A DNA stretch of 64,000 nt, taken from Mangrovimonas sp. YM274 (GTDB lineage: Bacteria > Bacteroidota > Bacteroidia > Flavobacteriales > Flavobacteriaceae). The number at the start of each line of letters is the position of its first letter. Positions within the stretch are counted from its first letter, which is position 1. The DNA is taken from positions 2,847,501 to 2,911,500 of the forward strand of contig NZ_CP133091.1 of NCBI RefSeq assembly GCF_030908385.1. The letters run 5' to 3'. The position numbers and the translations under genes are program-made. This document shows positions 16,680 through 51,895 of this stretch, one piece after another. The notes beneath the pieces were generated by a model, which was given only the letters and a program-made list of their open reading frames with translations, had not been told where the DNA came from and ran no database searches.

Positions 16680-19600
16680 TTAACGTTTCAGGGTAAAGTG
16701 CGCCTTGAACTCTTTGCTCTGCCCCGTCGATGGTTCCACGTACTCCACAACAAACCAGTAGTCGCTGCTCGGCATCGCTGCTCCGTTGTACGTTCCGTCC
16801 CATCCTTCGCTAGATGGTGAGATCTGCTTTATAAGCTTTCCTTGCCTGTCGAAGATGAAGATCCTAGTCGCCGATTGGTCACTAAATCCAACAATGTTCC
16901 AAGTGTCGTTATAACCGTCACCGTTAGGCGTAAAGAATAACGGATAATCCAATACTGTCACTCTGGTGCTAGCCTCTCCACAGCCCAAAATATCTCTTGC
17001 AGTTACCGTATGCTCTCCCCATGGCACGTTCTCGAACACACCGCTCTCCTGCCATGGCCCGTCGTCCAGACTGTACTCATAGCTGCTGTCTCCGCTGGCC
17101 GTGGCCACCACGACATGGTTGTCTGCAAAGGCCTCGGTCACCACTTCCGCTACAATGCTCGGCGGTGCGCTCTCGATCACCTCAGTGGTGTCCGTGCGCT
17201 CACACATGGTCACCGTAGAAGTCGATACGTCGATTACCGTTACACTGTAGATTCCCGCTTCTGTCGGTTCATAGCTACCGCCGGTAGCCCCCGCAATCTC
17301 CTGACCGTTGAAGTACCAGATGAACAGATAGTCAGGTTCCGTTAGCCCTGTCTCCAATACCGGTGGGTCGATCGCCTCGGTTCCGTTGGTATCCAGACAC
17401 AGCACATAGCTGTCGTAAAGGTCGAACACCGGCTGTGGGTTCACCTGAAGGGTCAGCTCTGCCACCGCGTAACAGATGGAGTCCGGTGTGGTATCGTTGT
17501 CCACACGGGCATAGATCACCTGTGGGTTGACCACGTTCTCATAAAGGGTCGGCAATGGGCTTGTACCCGCTTCGGCATCCGCCTCGCTGGCATAGTAGCT
17601 CACCGTATAGTTTGCTGGGTCCTGTCCGTCCAACAGTTCCGCGTCCATGGCAGACAGGTCGAACTGCACGCTGTCGTCGGTCGGATCTCCGTCCACTTCC
17701 ATATTGTCATCACAAAGCTCATAGAGGATGGCCTCCATGTCCGGATTGGCCTCCGCCGCTTCCTGTACCTCCACAAAGAAGCTCTGAGTACTTATCGAAC
17801 AGCCTGTATCCAGATTGGTGATCGCCACAAAGATCTGCTGCGGGTTCACGGTGTTGGTGAACGGGCTCACAAGGTCGTTGTCCCCATTGTCCGCATCCAA
17901 CTGCGATACGTGGTAGCTCACCCCATAGAGCGCAGGGTCCTGTCCGCCCAGCACCTCTTCGTCCTTCTGAGACAGGTCGAAGGCATAGGCCCCTTCCGTG
18001 TTGTTCTCACAGGCCACGATGTCCGTTACGGCAACTGCCTCCGGCAGTGGGTTCACCAAGATATCAAAGTCCACGATCGTATAACAGTCCGTGATGTCGT
18101 TGGCCACGCGCACATAGATGGTCTGTGGGCTGGAAATGTTCCCATAGGCCGTTGGGTCAGGGATTGCATTGGTATCCTGTTCCGCATCAAAAAGGCTCTC
18201 GTGGTAGCTCGCCGATACACCGGCCTCTCCGTTGATGATATAGGTCTCGTTCTCCGTAAGGTCGAACAGCTCCACCTCGTCTCCCGTGTTCTCATCGTCG
18301 CACAGTGCAATATCAGATGGGTCCTGGCTCGGGGTAGGGTTCGGCAATACGCGGATGGTCAAGGTCGTCTGGTCCGTACAGCCCGTGTCCGTATCGGTAA
18401 CCACCACATATAGGGTCTGTGGGTTCGCCGCCACTCCGTTAACCGAAGTGTTCACATAGGCCGTTGGGTCCGGGATCGCATTGGTCCCCGCATCGGCATC
18501 AGCCTGGGTCTCGTAGTAGCTTACGCTCCAGCTCCCCTCATTGCCCGTGATCTCCCCGTCCTTTACCGTAAGGTCGAACACCGTCAGCTCATCCGCAACA
18601 TCGTCGTCGCAAAGCTGCAGCGGCGTTGGCTGCACCGCTACCGGTGGCAGTTCCACACGGATCTCAAACTCGCCCGTGCTCACACAGCCGTTGTCAAGGC
18701 TCTCCAGCCTTACGTATATCATCTGTGGGTTGGTCTGGTTCACATAGCCCCATGGATTGGCGATCGGTGCCGCTCCGGACTCTGCGTCCGCCATGGTAAG
18801 GTGGTAGCTAAGCTCGAACTGCGATGGGTCCTGCGCACCGAGGATCTCGGCATCCATACCGGTCAAATCGAAGCTTGCATAGCCGTCCGTGTTCGTATCG
18901 CAGATTACATAGTCCTCGATGGCCGTTGGCACTACCGGTGACGGCAGTACGTTAAGCTGTAGGCCAACCACGCTGTGGCAGCCCGTTACCATGTTCTCCG
19001 CTCTGGCATATACCACCTGGGCATTGGCCACTATATTGTCATAAGGGCTCAAGAGCACATTGTCCCCGCTCTCGGCATCCGATATCGTCTCATGGTAGGT
19101 GATGGCAATGTCCAGCTCACCGTTGATGATCTCCTGCGTGCGCTCCTCCAAATCGAAGCTCGCATAGCCGTCGTTGTCACCGTCACATTCCTCCAATGGC
19201 GTCGGGTCTGCCTCCGGTGACGGGATCGGGTTCACCCTCAGGTCCAGGATCACCGTGCTGTAGCAGCCCGTATTGCTGTTCTCCGCTCTCACGAAGATCG
19301 TCTGTGGGTTGGCAATGTTCGTATAGGGGCTCACAAGGGCATTGTCGCCGTTTTCGGCATCTGCCAGCGTAAGGTGGTAGCTCAGTACAATACCCACCTG
19401 TCCGCCAAGGATCCCGTCGGTACTCTCCTCTAGTACAAAGGACTCCTGCTCGTCGCCCGGGTTGTTGTAGTCACAAAGCTCCAATGGCAGCGGCTGCATC
19501 AATACCGGCAGGGCGTTCACGATAAGCTCCAATGGTACGACCTTGTGGCAGCCGTTGGCACTATCCTCAACGCGTACCCACACCTGCTGTGCAAACGGTA

Positions 19601-22600
19601 CCGTATTGGTAAAGCTCAATGGGTTGGGGATGGCAGAGGTGCCCGATTCGGCATCGTCCTCAGTCAGGTAATAGGATACGCCGTACTGTACCGGGTCAAG
19701 CCCGTCAAGTACCTCCGCGTCCTTGAGCGTCAAATTGAACTGTGCATAGCCGTCGCCGGAGGCGTCGTCGCAGACCTCAAGGGCCGTTGGCTCCTCCAAC
19801 TGTGGGGTTGGGTGCACCACAAGCACAAGCTCCACGATCGTCGCACAGTCCGTTGCGATCGTTGCGCTCTCAACACGCACATAGAGCGTCTGGGTATTGG
19901 CCACAATATTGTTGTAAGGGCTCGACAGGGCGTTAACGCCGTTGTCCGCATCCGCCTGCGTCTCGTGATAGGTAAGTACCAGTCCCGTCGTACCTCCCGT
20001 GATACCGGCATCCGCATCAGACAGGTCGAACACGCCAAAACCGTCGCTGTCCGCATCACAGTACTCCAATGGATCTGGAATGTTAGCCTCTGGGGCCTGT
20101 TCCACTACAAGGCCCAAGGTCGTCGTGCTGTAACAGCCCGTTTGGATATCTTCTATGCGTACGAAAACCGTCTCGCCCGTAGTCCCGAAATAAGGGATTG
20201 CAAGGGCATTGGCTCCAGACTCGGCATCGGCCAGGGAGCCATGGTAGCTCACCGCATAGGCAGGATTGTTTCCGTTGATCTCCGTATTCTTTATCGTAAG
20301 GTCAATGTCAGTCATTCCGTCAGGAACGTTGTCGTCACACACCTCCAATGGGGTTGGCGCCACATAACTTGGCAGTGGGTTCACCTCAAGCTGGAAACTT
20401 GTGGTCCCGTAACAGTCCGGATAGGCAGGGTCCTCTACCCTTACATAAATGGTCTGTGGGTTTGTTGTGTTTCCATAGGCCGATGGCGTGGTGATCGCTC
20501 CCTGTGCCAATTCGGCATCCGAAAGACTGGTATAATAGCCTACATTGTATACCGATGGGTCCTGCGCCCCCAGGATAAAACTGTCCTGAACGGTTAGGTC
20601 GAAAGTAGCTTGCTCTGGGACAGAAGGATCTTCTGTACAAAGTGACAAACCTGATACTTCGAAAGCCTGAGCCCTATAATTTACTACCAAATTGAAGACA
20701 GGGTTTGCAGATGCAATATAACAATTGGAATCTCCTATACTTTCTACCCGAACATAAATAGGCTGAGGATTAACCGTATTGACATATGGACTTACTAAAG
20801 CTCCTGTACCTGCATCGGCATCAGCAGAACTTGTATAATATGTCACTAAAAAGTTACTACTCGGCTGTAATCCTAAAATTCCAAAATCCTGAGAGTTCAA
20901 ATCAAAAGATTCAAAGCCATCATTACTAATATCGTCACAAAGTTCTAAATCCAGAACTGGGTTTATAGTAGGCTGCCCCGTTACATTTAAAGTAAAAGAC
21001 AACACTTCATAACATCCAGAATCTAAATACTCTACTCTAATATAAATACTTTGACCATCGGTTCCCGAATATGCTCCTGATGTTGTAACTTCATTAATAT
21101 CATCCTCAGCATCTTGTTGAGTTTCATGGAAGGTAACTTCCAATTCATCTAGGTTGGTTGCACTAGCCAATACAACAGATGTATTGGATTCTAAATCGAA
21201 AATATATGGAGGTACTCCGTTATCACACACATATAAATTGTTTGGAGCTTCCGTAACGATTTCAGGCAATACTTCAATACATACTTCTTCTGAATATTCA
21301 CAGCCAAAACTATCAACAGATGTATAGGTATAACAATGCATTCCTGCAGTTGAAGGTTGCACTGTAATAACATTATCCGTTGTATCTATGATTGAAGCAT
21401 CTGCCCCCCACGATTCACTTTCAATATCAGCGGTAAAGGATAACTCAGGAGGTTGAATATTAGGATCAAAATTCATTCCCCAAGAGAAAATATACCCATT
21501 ATCTATACTCAAATTATCAACAATTTCAATACACCAATCTCCATTTAATGGACTTCCTATTAAGGATGCAAAGGACTCTATTGGCAAATAGGTTCCTGGA
21601 GCCCAAGAATTGCCAGGAGGATTTGACCCTGCCGTAATTGTTGGCGCATTTTGAAGCAATGTCGTTCCTGACATGGACCAACAATAATCAGCTCCTACAC
21701 CTGGAGTATTTGAATTATCATCGTTGGCGCCTCCAAAATACGTTCCTCCACCAGCCTGTACAAACAATTCGGCTTCCTGACCATTTGGAGAAATAATTGT
21801 AATGTCCAAGTCTCCTGAATAAGAGTGTTCCATATTCACACAAACATCCAATAATTGATTGGCATCTGTCAAGGTTTGATCTGAAGCAAAGCAATCTACC
21901 GTGATACATGTACTATAAACCGCTCCCGAACCATCAGGCAAAAAGGTAGTTCCACTTACTGGAGGGGTACATTCATTTATATATTCAACCGCATTTACAA
22001 CACCATCAATTGTGGTTGAATCTCCAAAACAGATCACACTTTCAGCAGCTTCAGTTCCTGTAAAATCAGGTGCTGGCGCAACCTGTATCACTTGATTAAT
22101 TAAATTCGTATTAGCACAACCCTCTGGATCCACACTGGTGTTACCGTCCCTTACATTCAAGTTAAGAAGGTATACTCCTGGCTCGGAAAAAGTAAATGAT
22201 GCTGTCTGCCCCTCTACTATTTGTCCATCACTAGACTCCCACTCATAGGTTGCTCCCGTACCATCAAATTCAAAATCTCCACTACCGGTAACTGTTACTG
22301 GCTCATTAATACACACTTCAATATAGCCGTCGTCATTAGGTTCCGGAGTAGCCGAATCCAGTTGTGACACAACCGTTTGACAAGGTGTCATACACGATAT
22401 TTCTGCAGCCCATCCTGTTGTAACACCTGAGTCGTTTGATACAAACTGAATGGTTAAACATCCTGACGTATTATCTGGTGTTGCGGTTACAAACCCAGGA
22501 TTATTAGCCCCATCAAAAGTTCCAAAAGCATCCGCTGCTACACTATCCCCATCATATATGGTCATAGTATCTGCGCCTAATTGCGTACTAAAGGCTGTAA

Positions 22601-22802
22601 AATTAAGCTGTACAAGCTGCCCATCACTTTCAGGACATATGGTAATAACAATATCTTCTCCCGAAGCATAATTTCCTGCGGCTCCTCCTGAATCATAGAA
22701 CATACCAGAACACTGAGAAAATGTTCCATCCTGCATCACGAGGTCCTGTGAAAATGAGACAAAAGAAGATATCAAGAAAAATACAAGTAACGTTTTTTTC
22801 AT
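16680..22802 (-). CDS. Giant multidomain secreted protein with T9SS type B sorting domain
   Basis: This 2040-residue protein should be exported by Sec (signal peptide MKKTLLVFFLISSFVSFSQ) and then by the type IX system to the cell surface or medium. In order: a CUB-like domain (20-136); a PKD-like domain (about 140-245); a proprotein-convertase-P-like domain (about 300-445, with SGDLDITIISPNGQEAEL and LNGDWCIEIVDN). Next come 13 tandem modules of 85-105 residues (about 520-1795), then Ig-like segments. The C-terminal type B sorting domain starts at FFTPNGDGYNDTW (about 1954). Each module reads roughly LEVCDD..DG...FDL, then SYHET..DAE.G, then NPQTIYVRVE...GCY. No catalytic residues are evident, so an adhesive or structural role is likely. 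GC content rises sharply from module 3 to the end of the gene. Confidence 0.93.
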   Translation of the reverse strand: MKKTLLVFFLISSFVSFSQDLVMQDGTFSQCSGMFYDSGGAAGNYASGEDIVITICPESDGQLVQLNFTAFSTQLGADTMTIYDGDSVAADAFGTFDGANNPGFVTATPDNTSGCLTIQFVSNDSGVTTGWAAEISCMTPCQTVVSQLDSATPEPNDDGYIEVCINEPVTVTGSGDFEFDGTGATYEWESSDGQIVEGQTASFTFSEPGVYLLNLNVRDGNTSVDPEGCANTNLINQVIQVAPAPDFTGTEAAESVICFGDSTTIDGVVNAVEYINECTPPVSGTTFLPDGSGAVYSTCITVDCFASDQTLTDANQLLDVCVNMEHSYSGDLDITIISPNGQEAELFVQAGGGTYFGGANDDNSNTPGVGADYCWSMSGTTLLQNAPTITAGSNPPGNSWAPGTYLPIESFASLIGSPLNGDWCIEIVDNLSIDNGYIFSWGMNFDPNIQPPELSFTADIESESWGADASIIDTTDNVITVQPSTAGMHCYTYTSVDSFGCEYSEEVCIEVLPEIVTEAPNNLYVCDNGVPPYIFDLESNTSVVLASATNLDELEVTFHETQQDAEDDINEVTTSGAYSGTDGQSIYIRVEYLDSGCYEVLSFTLNVTGQPTINPVLDLELCDDISNDGFESFDLNSQDFGILGLQPSSNFLVTYYTSSADADAGTGALVSPYVNTVNPQPIYVRVESIGDSNCYIASANPVFNLVVNYRAQAFEVSGLSLCTEDPSVPEQATFDLTVQDSFILGAQDPSVYNVGYYTSLSDAELAQGAITTPSAYGNTTNPQTIYVRVEDPAYPDCYGTTSFQLEVNPLPSYVAPTPLEVCDDNVPDGMTDIDLTIKNTEINGNNPAYAVSYHGSLADAESGANALAIPYFGTTGETVFVRIEDIQTGCYSTTTLGLVVEQAPEANIPDPLEYCDADSDGFGVFDLSDADAGITGGTTGLVLTYHETQADADNGVNALSSPYNNIVANTQTLYVRVESATIATDCATIVELVLVVHPTPQLEEPTALEVCDDASGDGYAQFNLTLKDAEVLDGLDPVQYGVSYYLTEDDAESGTSAIPNPLSFTNTVPFAQQVWVRVEDSANGCHKVVPLELIVNALPVLMQPLPLELCDYNNPGDEQESFVLEESTDGILGGQVGIVLSYHLTLADAENGDNALVSPYTNIANPQTIFVRAENSNTGCYSTVILDLRVNPIPSPEADPTPLEECDGDNDGYASFDLEERTQEIINGELDIAITYHETISDAESGDNVLLSPYDNIVANAQVVYARAENMVTGCHSVVGLQLNVLPSPVVPTAIEDYVICDTNTDGYASFDLTGMDAEILGAQDPSQFELSYHLTMADAESGAAPIANPWGYVNQTNPQMIYVRLESLDNGCVSTGEFEIRVELPPVAVQPTPLQLCDDDVADELTVFDLTVKDGEITGNEGSWSVSYYETQADADAGTNAIPDPTAYVNTSVNGVAANPQTLYVVVTDTDTGCTDQTTLTIRVLPNPTPSQDPSDIALCDDENTGDEVELFDLTENETYIINGEAGVSASYHESLFDAEQDTNAIPDPTAYGNISSPQTIYVRVANDITDCYTIVDFDILVNPLPEAVAVTDIVACENNTEGAYAFDLSQKDEEVLGGQDPALYGVSYHVSQLDADNGDNDLVSPFTNTVNPQQIFVAITNLDTGCSISTQSFFVEVQEAAEANPDMEAILYELCDDNMEVDGDPTDDSVQFDLSAMDAELLDGQDPANYTVSYYASEADAEAGTSPLPTLYENVVNPQVIYARVDNDTTPDSICYAVAELTLQVNPQPVFDLYDSYVLCLDTNGTEAIDPPVLETGLTEPDYLFIWYFNGQEIAGATGGSYEPTEAGIYSVTVIDVSTSTVTMCERTDTTEVIESAPPSIVAEVVTEAFADNHVVVATASGDSSYEYSLDDGPWQESGVFENVPWGEHTVTARDILGCGEASTRVTVLDYPLFFTPNGDGYNDTWNIVGFSDQSATRIFIFDRQGKLIKQISPSSEGWDGTYNGAAMPSSDYWFVVEYVEPSTGQSKEFKAHFTLKR
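17410..21245 (-). repeat. Coding tandem repeat array: 13 modules of about 260-315 bp
   Basis: Reading the protein, I count 13 successive modules, each opening with a Cys-Asp motif (CDD, CDN, CDG, CDA or variants) and ending with a Pro-rich linker before the next. Conserved positions are FDL, SYY or SYH, DAE or DAD, PY or PTAY, NPQ.IYVRVE and GC. At DNA level, modules 3-13 share recurring GC-rich stretches, for example around the NPQTIYVR codons. Modules 1-2 are AT-rich and more divergent. Confidence 0.88.
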
Positions 22803-22823: not shown

Positions 22824-23300
22824 TTATTTTTGAAATTGAGACTTTATAATAATGAAGTAATTAGTATTATCTACTCTATACATTTGTCCCGAATGACCAT
22901 TTACATTGAACAAATATTTTAATGGATTAAAATTTTCAGGACTAAAAACTGTATCCCTTTTTAAATTGTCCACATAATAGTTACACAAAGGAACTTCAGA
23001 CAAAAGGGGACATTCTTTTTGATCTTGAGGATTTGAAATCATTTGAATCGCTATACGGTTTCTAAGCAAATTCTTTATATCCTTAACGCGTTGTGGATAA
23101 TTAAAAACATATTTCTTTGATTGATTCCCGTATACCTCATCAATCTGCGTTAATTCCTTTGTAGAAAAAGGGGCATTAACATTGTCCTTATATACCACGT
23201 GGGTAACGGTTTGCCTATTTTGAGGAGTCTGCGAGACCGAATAATTAATGGAAAAAAAAGTAAAACCTACGATAAGTAGGGAGGGTAGTTTTAATTTCAT
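22824..23300 (-). CDS. Small secreted protein of unknown function, upstream partner of the giant T9SS protein
   Basis: This 158-residue protein has a clear signal peptide (MKLKLPSLLIVGFTFFSINYSVSQ) and a mature part of about 134 residues with two Cys close together (KECPLLSEVPLCNYY). There is no lipobox and no T9SS sorting domain. It ends 21 bases before the giant cargo gene on the same strand, so the two are probably one operon and may act together at the envelope. I do not recognise the family. It is not a PorP/SprF-like barrel, which is the more usual neighbour of such cargo genes. Confidence 0.7.
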   Translation of the reverse strand: MKLKLPSLLIVGFTFFSINYSVSQTPQNRQTVTHVVYKDNVNAPFSTKELTQIDEVYGNQSKKYVFNYPQRVKDIKNLLRNRIAIQMISNPQDQKECPLLSEVPLCNYYVDNLKRDTVFSPENFNPLKYLFNVNGHSGQMYRVDNTNYFIIIKSQFQK

Positions 23301-23449
23301 ATTGAGTTTAGCTTTTAAAAAGTGCGGAATTTAAGGATTTTTTAATAAAACATTAGCACTCTATTAATGATTTTAACACTTGCTTTGTGTAATGATATAA
23401 CAGCTCAAATTAAAAAACCCCTACCCGCAATTTGATTTTTTTAATTGCT

Positions 23450-47927: not shown

Positions 47928-47960
47928 AAAAAAGGGCTACTATGGCGAGTAACCCCTTTT
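47928..47960 (-). terminator. Terminator of the LamG lipoprotein gene
   Basis: On the minus strand AAAAGGGGTTACT pairs imperfectly with AGTAGCCCTTTT around a 6-base loop and is followed by TTCTTTT, 30 bases past the stop. Confidence 0.7.
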
Positions 47961-47989
47961 AACAACCTAAAAACTAAAAAAAAACTATC

Positions 47990-50328: not shown

Positions 50329-50361
50329 TAATAGAACAAGAACCTTCAAAAAATTCCTACC
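50329..50361 (-). promoter_or_regulatory. Candidate ECF-sigma promoter of the LamG lipoprotein gene
   Basis: On the minus strand GGTAGGAA (50361-50354), 17 bp, TTCTATTA (50336-50329). The same GGTAGGAA-N17-TTATATAG lies upstream of the anti-sigma gene at 50955. Distance to the ATG at 50305 is about 24 bases from the downstream box. Confidence 0.6.
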
Positions 50362-50404
50362 ATAACATTTATTTTTAATAAGTTTATGACCTGAAAATCA
50401 AACT

Positions 50405-50923
50405 ATGCCCAAACAATTACATGATAACATCTGTGCCGAACACCTGTTTTCGTCGTTGTTTAAAAAATATTCTAAAGATCTTCATGATTTTTTATACTTC
50501 AAGTTTGGGGAGCGCTTAAACCCTAGTGATAAAGTTCAAGATGCCTTTATCAAACTATGGGAAAATTGTGCCAAAATTCCACCCAGCAAAGCCAAAAGTT
50601 TTTTGTTTACCACAGCAAACAATTTAATGCTAAACGAGGCTGCTCACCAAAAGGTTGTCTTTAAACACCAACAAATAAAACCAAAGTCCTACACTACCGT
50701 TACGCCTGAATTTTTAATGCAGGAAGAAGAATATTTAAAAAAGCTGGAAAAAGCATTGAGCAACCTTACCGAAGCGCAAAGAGTCGCTTTTATGATGAAT
50801 AGAGTTGAAGGGAAACGTTTCAAGGAAATTGCGGCACTTTTGGACATTTCTACAAAAGCCGTTGAAAAGCGTATTTATGGTGCCTTAAAAAAATTGCAAG
50901 AGGACATAGAAGGATTTAAATAA
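50405..50923 (+). CDS. ECF-family RNA polymerase sigma factor (FecI-like)
   Basis: This 172-residue ECF sigma factor has region 2 at about 15-80 (LFKKYSKDLHDFLYFKFG and DKVQDAFIKLWEN) and region 4 at about 105-165 (LEKALSNLTEAQRVAFMMNR, then FKEIAALLDISTKAVEKRIY). It directs polymerase to a small regulon when released by the FecR anti-sigma encoded 78 bases downstream. Candidate targets in this window are the FecR gene itself and the divergent lipoprotein gene, which share a promoter-like sequence. Confidence 0.93.
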   Translation: MPKQLHDNICAEHLFSSLFKKYSKDLHDFLYFKFGERLNPSDKVQDAFIKLWENCAKIPPSKAKSFLFTTANNLMLNEAAHQKVVFKHQQIKPKSYTTVTPEFLMQEEEYLKKLEKALSNLTEAQRVAFMMNRVEGKRFKEIAALLDISTKAVEKRIYGALKKLQEDIEGFK

Positions 50924-50954
50924 AACCAATAATTTAAAGTATTTATCAAAAATA

Positions 50955-50987
50955 GGTAGGAAATTGAAAAGCCCAACTGTTATATAG
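50955..50987 (+). promoter_or_regulatory. Candidate ECF-sigma promoter of the fecR-type gene
   Basis: GGTAGGAA (50955-50962), 17 bp, TTATATAG (50980-50987), then 14 bases to the FecR ATG. It lies after the sigma gene, so anti-sigma and receptor can be raised separately from sigma. Confidence 0.6.
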
Positions 50988-51001
50988 GTGTAACGAATAC
51001 C

Positions 51002-51895
51002 ATGGAAAGAGACGAATTGATACAGAAATGGCTAGACCACAGCCTTACCAAAGAAGAACATGAAGCTTTTAAAAAGCTTGATGATTATGGTGCTTTGGTA
51101 CAATTGAACCGATCTCTTCAACATTTTCAAGCCCCTAGCTTTAATGTTGATGAAGCGCATTCAAATGTATTGGGTCGTATTTCCAAAAAGAAGAAAGCAT
51201 TTCGATTCCCAAAGTCTATTTATCGAATTGCAGCCGTTTTAGCCATCTCTTTAGGCATCTATTACGTTGTCACTTCTCAAGACACTACTGTCACTACCTT
51301 AGCTTCCGAAAAGTCAACCATCTCACTACCGGACAAATCAATCGTCACACTAAACGCTTTGTCATCGGTTGTTTATAATAAACGGCATTGGGAGCAAAAA
51401 AGAGAAGTACTATTGGACGGAGAAGCTTTCTTTAGAGTAGCAAAAGGAGCCTCCTTTGATGTAAAAACAGAACTTGGGACAGTAACGGTATTTGGAACAC
51501 AGTTTAACGTTAAAGAACGTAACAATTTTTTTGAGGTTATATGCTATGAAGGTTTAGTAGGCGTTACCTACGACAACAAAGAAACCAAATTACATCCCGG
51601 AGATCATTTTTTAGTAAGAAATGGCCAACGCATAAAAACGGAAACCTCAAACAGCTCCGGCCCTTCCTGGCTTCAAAATGAAAGTTACTTTAAAAGTACA
51701 CCATACAGTGAGGTTCTTGCTGAGTTTGAAAGACAGTACAACGTGACAATCAACCTCCAAAATATAGATACTTCGCAATTATTCACAGGAAGTTTTACAC
51801 ATAAAAATATGGATGTTGCCTTAAAATCCATTACCTTACCACTCCAATTAAGATTTACTAAAACAGCTAATACCATTACTTTGATACGTGAATAA
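51002..51895 (+). CDS. FecR-family anti-sigma factor
   Basis: This 297-residue single-pass membrane protein has a cytosolic N-terminus of about 70 residues (sigma-binding), one membrane segment (IYRIAAVLAISLGIYYVV), then the periplasmic FecR domain (about 95-190: ISLPDKSIVTLNALSSVVY, VLLDGEAFFRVAKG, GTQFNVKERNN). A C-terminal DUF4974-like part (YSEVLAEFERQYNVTINL) follows. FecR proteins pass a signal from the TonB-dependent receptor to the sigma factor. The gene order sigma-FecR-receptor is standard. Confidence 0.93.
   Translation: MERDELIQKWLDHSLTKEEHEAFKKLDDYGALVQLNRSLQHFQAPSFNVDEAHSNVLGRISKKKKAFRFPKSIYRIAAVLAISLGIYYVVTSQDTTVTTLASEKSTISLPDKSIVTLNALSSVVYNKRHWEQKREVLLDGEAFFRVAKGASFDVKTELGTVTVFGTQFNVKERNNFFEVICYEGLVGVTYDNKETKLHPGDHFLVRNGQRIKTETSNSSGPSWLQNESYFKSTPYSEVLAEFERQYNVTINLQNIDTSQLFTGSFTHKNMDVALKSITLPLQLRFTKTANTITLIRE

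Follow-up and report, generated by a model that had tools for sequence, protein, structure and literature searches.

The two matching sites on either side of an ECF sigma factor gene in Mangrovimonas sp. YM274 are, we are fairly sure, target promoters of that sigma factor, which would act with its neighbours as a unit similar to FecI/FecR/FecA and drive the fecR-tonB genes, a divergent lipoprotein gene and distant genes for giant T9SS proteins. The locus most likely represents a surface-signalling regulon of the FecI/FecR type for surface adhesins. The whole stretch of DNA analysed, hereafter the window, covers 64,000 nucleotides (contig NZ_CP133091.1, positions 2,847,501 to 2,911,500), and its relevant features are collected in Table 1.

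An earlier note on this DNA had pointed out that the 8-mer GGTAGGAA is found once on each strand within 600 bp, followed each time at the same distance by a second box. Both observations are correct, as the copies lie 594 bp apart and a gap of 17 bases separates GGTAGGAA from TTCTATTA on the minus strand and from TTATATAG on the plus strand. Regarding the distances to the ATG, the 14 bases given for the plus-strand copy were borne out, but the second box of the minus-strand copy ends 23 bases before the ATG and not 24. The pairing and the fixed spacing of the form first proposed, GGTAGGAA-N17-TTNTAT, also hold, but the comparison of relatives revealed a better core, GGTAGGAA-N15-TGTTNTA, in which the spacer is 15 and the second box reads TGTT(A/C/T)TA. 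The fecR start codon is found 15 nt downstream of the end of the refined element (50986).

Table 1. Features of the window (strand in the third column; promoters are predicted)
Feature	Position	Strand	Details
2040-aa repeat protein (CUB, PKD, P-domain) with T9SS type B sorting domain	16680..22802	-	
158-aa protein with apparent signal peptide	22824..23300	-	no known family
Third promoter of the same type	23394..23425	-	GGTAGGGG, 15-bp spacer, TGTTATATC; 96 nt before the 158-aa gene
Lipoprotein 3'UTR	47928..47989	-	TTTTTTAGTTTTTAGGTTGTT, then intrinsic terminator 47960-47928
Divergent lipoprotein, 771 aa	47990..50305	-	Pfam Laminin_G_3 3e-17
ECF-type promoter of the divergent lipoprotein gene	50330..50361	-	GGTAGGAA 50361-50354, 15-bp spacer, TGTTCTATT 50338-50330
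ECF sigma factor, 172 aa	50405..50923	+	Pfam Sigma70_r2 and r4_2; sigma2 and sigma4 only
ECF-type promoter of fecR-tonB	50955..50986	+	GGTAGGAA 50955-50962, 15-bp spacer, TGTTATATA 50978-50986
FecR-type sigma regulator, 297 aa	51002..51895	+	Pfam FecR 4e-17, FecR_C 9e-11
TonB-dependent receptor, 771 aa	51888..54203	+	FecR_C-like N-terminal domain (aa 31-94), then Plug

On its own, the 8-mer does not stand out: the window contains 3 copies, where 1.58 would be expected. The pattern GTAGGR-N16-TGTTNTA has four exact matches in the 3.82-Mb genome, three of them in the window, namely the two sites described above and a third one at 23425 on the minus strand. The fourth (3307780) is antisense within a murB-like gene and was rejected as a chance match. 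Most of the one-mismatch matches in the genome fall inside genes, and with a spacer one base longer the GTAGGR/TGTTNTA pattern had no exact match in the genome. A genome-wide search had been proposed in the earlier note; in relatives the TGTT form exceeded the backwards control, but the loose TTNTAT form following GGTAGGAA-N17, with two mismatches allowed, did not. Therefore, the boxes need TGTT in their definition to be useful.

The lipoprotein-sigma-FecR-TonB unit sits between ffh and argS, and across Flavobacteriaceae the same gene order is seen again in orthologous as well as paralogous loci. The sigma factor scored 101.8 bits against NCBIfam TIGR02985, under the cut-off of 126.4. Besides the FecR_C-like domain and Plug, the N-terminal region of the receptor gave no match to the STN model of Pfam, and no SusD was found after the receptor by Pfam and the list of open reading frames, in which argS follows on the opposite strand. 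The lipoprotein starts with SCQDND, followed in the alignment by N-terminal repeats with a conserved P-V/I-T/S; its LamG-type domain occupies aa 612-757, and a repeat of about 80 aa (aa 463-545) is common to the giant T9SS protein (BLAST, 7e-9). In relatives, nearly all the divergent genes encode lipoproteins with an SCQ(D/E/N) start, often CQDE, which is kept even where the remaining sequence has diverged to 15-30% identity. The residues from the cysteine onwards, CQDND in the window and CQDE or CQEE in most relatives, resemble SDDFE and QKDDE (PMC5080379), although CQDND does not strictly match the minimal LES motif, K-(D/E)2 or QA-(D/E)2, of the same source. The predicted structure of the lipoprotein (pLDDT 72, pTM 0.35) found only generic jelly-roll and lectin-like folds in the PDB, with low TM-scores, which we read as a probable reflection of its LamG domain and nothing more.

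The promoter pair is deeply conserved in Flavobacteriaceae. A weight matrix derived from twelve relatives (24 sites) was scored on a separate collection of 74 non-duplicate named loci of the family. Results showed that, with a spacer of 15, the fecR promoter reaches at least 10 bits in 72/74 loci and at least 7 bits in 74/74, and the divergent lipoprotein promoter at least 10 bits in 52 of the 61 loci having the lipoprotein. With spacers of 14 and 16, none of the 74 loci reaches 10 bits, a score attained by shuffled sequences in 4 of 2960 trials. The other lipoprotein loci (9/61) scored no match, and most of them seem due to faulty gene models, such as an over-long sigma ORF; gene starts came from a simple gene caller, and a wrong choice of start appears to be the source of most misses. 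In 38 systems from relative genomes, the fecR and lipoprotein promoters usually share the motif with a spacer of 15. Moreover, the TGT of the second box is invariant in 101 aligned promoter pairs, whose consensus is (G)GTAGG(A/G) and TGTT, and the spacers of the two promoters of one locus show about 49% identity. No copy of the motif points towards the sigma gene in any of the 101 loci. The alignment of these intergenic regions, which the earlier note had called for, thus found neither a motif that is missing from orthologous loci nor one that occurs at random, the two outcomes it had named against its own reading: both promoters keep the motif family-wide, with diverged spacers.

We also observed that the fecR start codon lies at a nearly fixed distance from TGTTnTA, 16-17 nt in most loci (50986-51002 in the window), implying an almost leaderless mRNA.

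The strict pattern was also searched genome-wide. In 60 relatives it gave 70 matches versus 14 for the backwards control, mostly in genomes having a FecR-type locus, and in seven genomes accessed by way of their loci it gave 35 versus none. The third site of the window precedes the genes of the 158-aa protein and of the 2040-aa giant, whose C-terminus matches TIGR04131 with 116 bits (cut-off 35) in addition to CHU_C, as expected of T9SS type B cargo. Homologous pairs of the two genes carry a site of this third type 89-101 nt upstream in three relatives (G001, G007, G010) and in six further genomes (L295-L300), and in G017 no recognisable motif was found upstream of the 158-aa gene. Homologues of the 158-aa gene are present in 5/40 relatives, all five with a closely related sigma locus; the structure predicted for this protein alone was unusable (pLDDT 40). 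In the genome of the window, a paralogue of the giant with 2097 aa has a one-mismatch site 35 nt upstream, at 776 kb. The motif also recurs before T9SS type A giants adjoining an rRNA-methyltransferase-like gene, before a small protein of 61-67 aa and before further lipoproteins, and one relative, G021, has it before three T9SS type A proteins. The earlier note had proposed that the regulon includes the divergent lipoprotein alongside the TonB receptor. Family-wide conservation of the motif in both promoters supports this proposal, but its limit to these two has to be amended, as giant T9SS proteins are included.

The two giant paralogues, one at 778 kb and the other, in the window, at 2865 kb, aligned with identical scores in several of their internal parts, which suggests that recent gene conversion or repeat duplication may have taken place.

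Among the 38 systems of relatives, the -35 box varies with the class of the locus, being GGTAGGA, GGTAGGG(T) or xxCAGG. With kinship only partly corrected in both comparisons, this class changes 9 times on the sigma tree versus 27.7 times with shuffled labels, and the -35 boxes within one locus match each other at 7.19/8 versus 6.35/8 in permuted pairs. Considering that a long and strict bipartite element is common to several promoters, it might be the operator of a DNA-binding activator or repressor acting over housekeeping promoters instead of a sigma promoter, and sequence alone does not fully separate the site of a sigma factor from that of an activator. We find such an operator improbable. 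The element is asymmetric, has one orientation and an invariant spacing, and its 3' box is usually 13-35 nt from start codons, as a core promoter requires. In addition, the -35 class follows the sigma gene, and only sigma and FecR are constant regulator genes of the locus.

In one paralogous sigma class (L083, L084, L087, L088, L089), the same TGTT box is preceded by a -35 box of the form xxCAGG(A/G) or xxAAGG, and the lipoprotein gene is then followed by further secreted-protein genes.

We infer that the sigma factor encoded between the two sites reads them, because it lies in the same locus, because the -35 class follows the sigma tree and because of a natural deletion in a genome of the same genus, G002 (loci L164 and L294). 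There, ffh adjoins argS and the sigma-FecR-TonB-lipoprotein locus is gone, except that the terminator of the lipoprotein gene and 25 residues of the receptor end persist between the two genes. G002 has also lost the 158-aa and giant genes, whose promoter and leader remain beside folE. The joint loss of the sigma locus and its distal targets, a single case, supports that they belong to one system. The sites could also be genuine ECF promoters whose main reader is a different ECF sigma factor in the cell. Genomes hold several paralogous ECF/FecR systems that recognise similar sites, so cross-reading between them is possible, and the ECF regulons of Flavobacterium psychrophilum are thought to overlap (PMC9723704). 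However, a main role for another sigma factor seems quite unlikely, considering that the -35 class goes with the sigma gene found beside it, that sigma locus and distal targets disappeared together in G002 and that genomes lacking a FecR-type locus have few strict matches. Finally, a chance resemblance in AT-rich intergenic DNA, with which the ordinary frequency of the 8-mer and the unenriched loose form would agree, has next to no probability and is refuted by the conservation data, namely the exact spacing kept family-wide in both promoters against the few shuffles reaching the threshold and the matches without any control counterpart in the seven genomes.

Reading of the sites by the neighbouring sigma factor would fit the following mechanism. 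The N-terminal domain of the TonB-dependent receptor, in the periplasm, would pass a ligand event on to FecR in the membrane, and FecR would free or activate the sigma factor. The active sigma factor would then initiate transcription at GGTAGGAA-N15-TGTTNTA, and the output would be more fecR-tonB (regulator and receptor), the divergent surface lipoprotein and the distant giant T9SS-secreted adhesin-like proteins. The sigma gene, lacking such a promoter, is presumably transcribed from a housekeeping promoter. The sites, their fixed geometry, conservation and positions and the gene families are directly observed, and from them we infer which way the signal runs and an adhesive function for the targets.

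The regulon may also extend to small RNAs. In eleven Psychroserpens-type genomes (L184, L186, L190, L196, L202, L204, L205, L209, L217, L229, L259), which cluster together on the sigma tree beside Ichthyenterobacterium, the lipoprotein gene is absent and its promoter is kept between sigma and ffh. Pairwise identity in this orphan promoter is 0.82 for the -35 box, 0.85 for the -10 box and 0.62 for the spacer. In 8/11 genomes, the RNA predicted from it is 86-91 nt long and contains GTTAGTTTTAGTTTTTAGTTGGTT followed by an intrinsic terminator, with a conserved U-rich core. The element formed by GTTAGTTTTAGTTTTTAGTTGGTT and the terminator corresponds to the lipoprotein 3'UTR in the window and in other relatives, and the 3'UTR of the window is homologous to the candidate RNA. 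A Psychroserpens-type ancestor may have deleted the lipoprotein coding sequence and kept the ECF promoter and the 3'UTR with its terminator, by which an mRNA gene would have become the gene of a small RNA of about 90 nt. This apparent turning of a protein gene into a small-RNA gene under the same promoter would constitute a natural case of such a change.

A second candidate RNA is found near guaA in 9/201 genomes of the family, with no control matches, and consists of a core, TTCATGTGTTTAGGTTGGTTTTTTGATTTTGAT, and an intrinsic terminator. A GGTAGGG-type motif lies 41-123 nt upstream in 8/9 genomes, and the 33-nt core is near-invariant across the loci (L173, L174, L176, L177, L317-L325). The GGTAGGGT sigma class would thus have a second ECF-driven small RNA near guaA with a related UUUAGGUUGGUU core. 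That the ECF regulon has small-RNA arms, in which both RNAs would be regulators dependent on an envelope signal in Bacteroidota, is a proposal to which we give about even chances. In E. coli, the envelope-signal ECF factor Sigma-E drives the small RNAs MicA, RybB and MicL. The candidates described here are likewise ECF-linked; they are found in Bacteroidota and predicted from sequence, and neither matched Rfam where it was searched.

The locus shares with E. coli FecI/FecR/FecA the presence of an ECF sigma factor, a FecR-family membrane regulator and a TonB receptor in one place. In E. coli, the receptor operon is transcribed by the ECF sigma factor and the sigma gene is not autoregulated (PMC9249621). 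The same arrangement is seen here, by motif only, as the promoter precedes the receptor operon (74/74 above 7 bits) and is never directed towards sigma (0/101). On the contrary, fecR joins here the receptor under the ECF promoter, and the divergent lipoprotein and the distant T9SS giants would be co-regulated. The promoter boxes also differ from those of E. coli Fec. Bacteroides Sus/PUL ECF-anti-sigma systems similarly combine an ECF sigma factor, an anti-sigma, a TonB receptor and a surface lipoprotein, but here the receptor is not followed by a SusD partner, and the lipoprotein gene is divergent, its product belonging to an unrelated family with a LamG domain. In Porphyromonas gingivalis, SigP is driven by a two-component system and controls machinery genes, and it is not known to have a FecR or TonB receptor partner. 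ECF control of type IX secretion genes, described for PorX/PorY-SigP (PMC4800418), is a feature that would be shared with the locus studied here, in which FecR and a TonB receptor accompany the sigma factor.

Classical ECF promoters have AAC at -35 and CGT at -10 (PMC8103513), unlike the boxes found here, (G)GTAGG(A/G) and TGTT. In the same family, an ECF-type motif of Flavobacterium psychrophilum, SM6, is also T9SS-linked, but it has a CGT -10 box and drives components of the T9SS machinery (PMC9723704), whereas the TGTT box precedes T9SS cargo and surface lipoproteins. The nearest published motifs, classical AAC/CGT and SM6, are therefore different from this one. Our literature search, which covered few subscription papers, found no description of the motif or of the regulon, and an earlier description is possible.

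As of 2020, all ECF factors of B. thetaiotaomicron still lacked a known motif (PMC7366714), and the recognition sites of Bacteroidota ECF factors are nearly unknown. The motif described here provides a sharp site that can be put to the test and whose variants are specific to paralogues. It would also place surface lipoproteins and adhesin-like T9SS giants, as a small regulon, under a receptor-coupled sigma factor. In marine Flavobacteriaceae, these sites very probably switch on the lipoprotein, the receptor operon and the giant adhesin-like proteins together.
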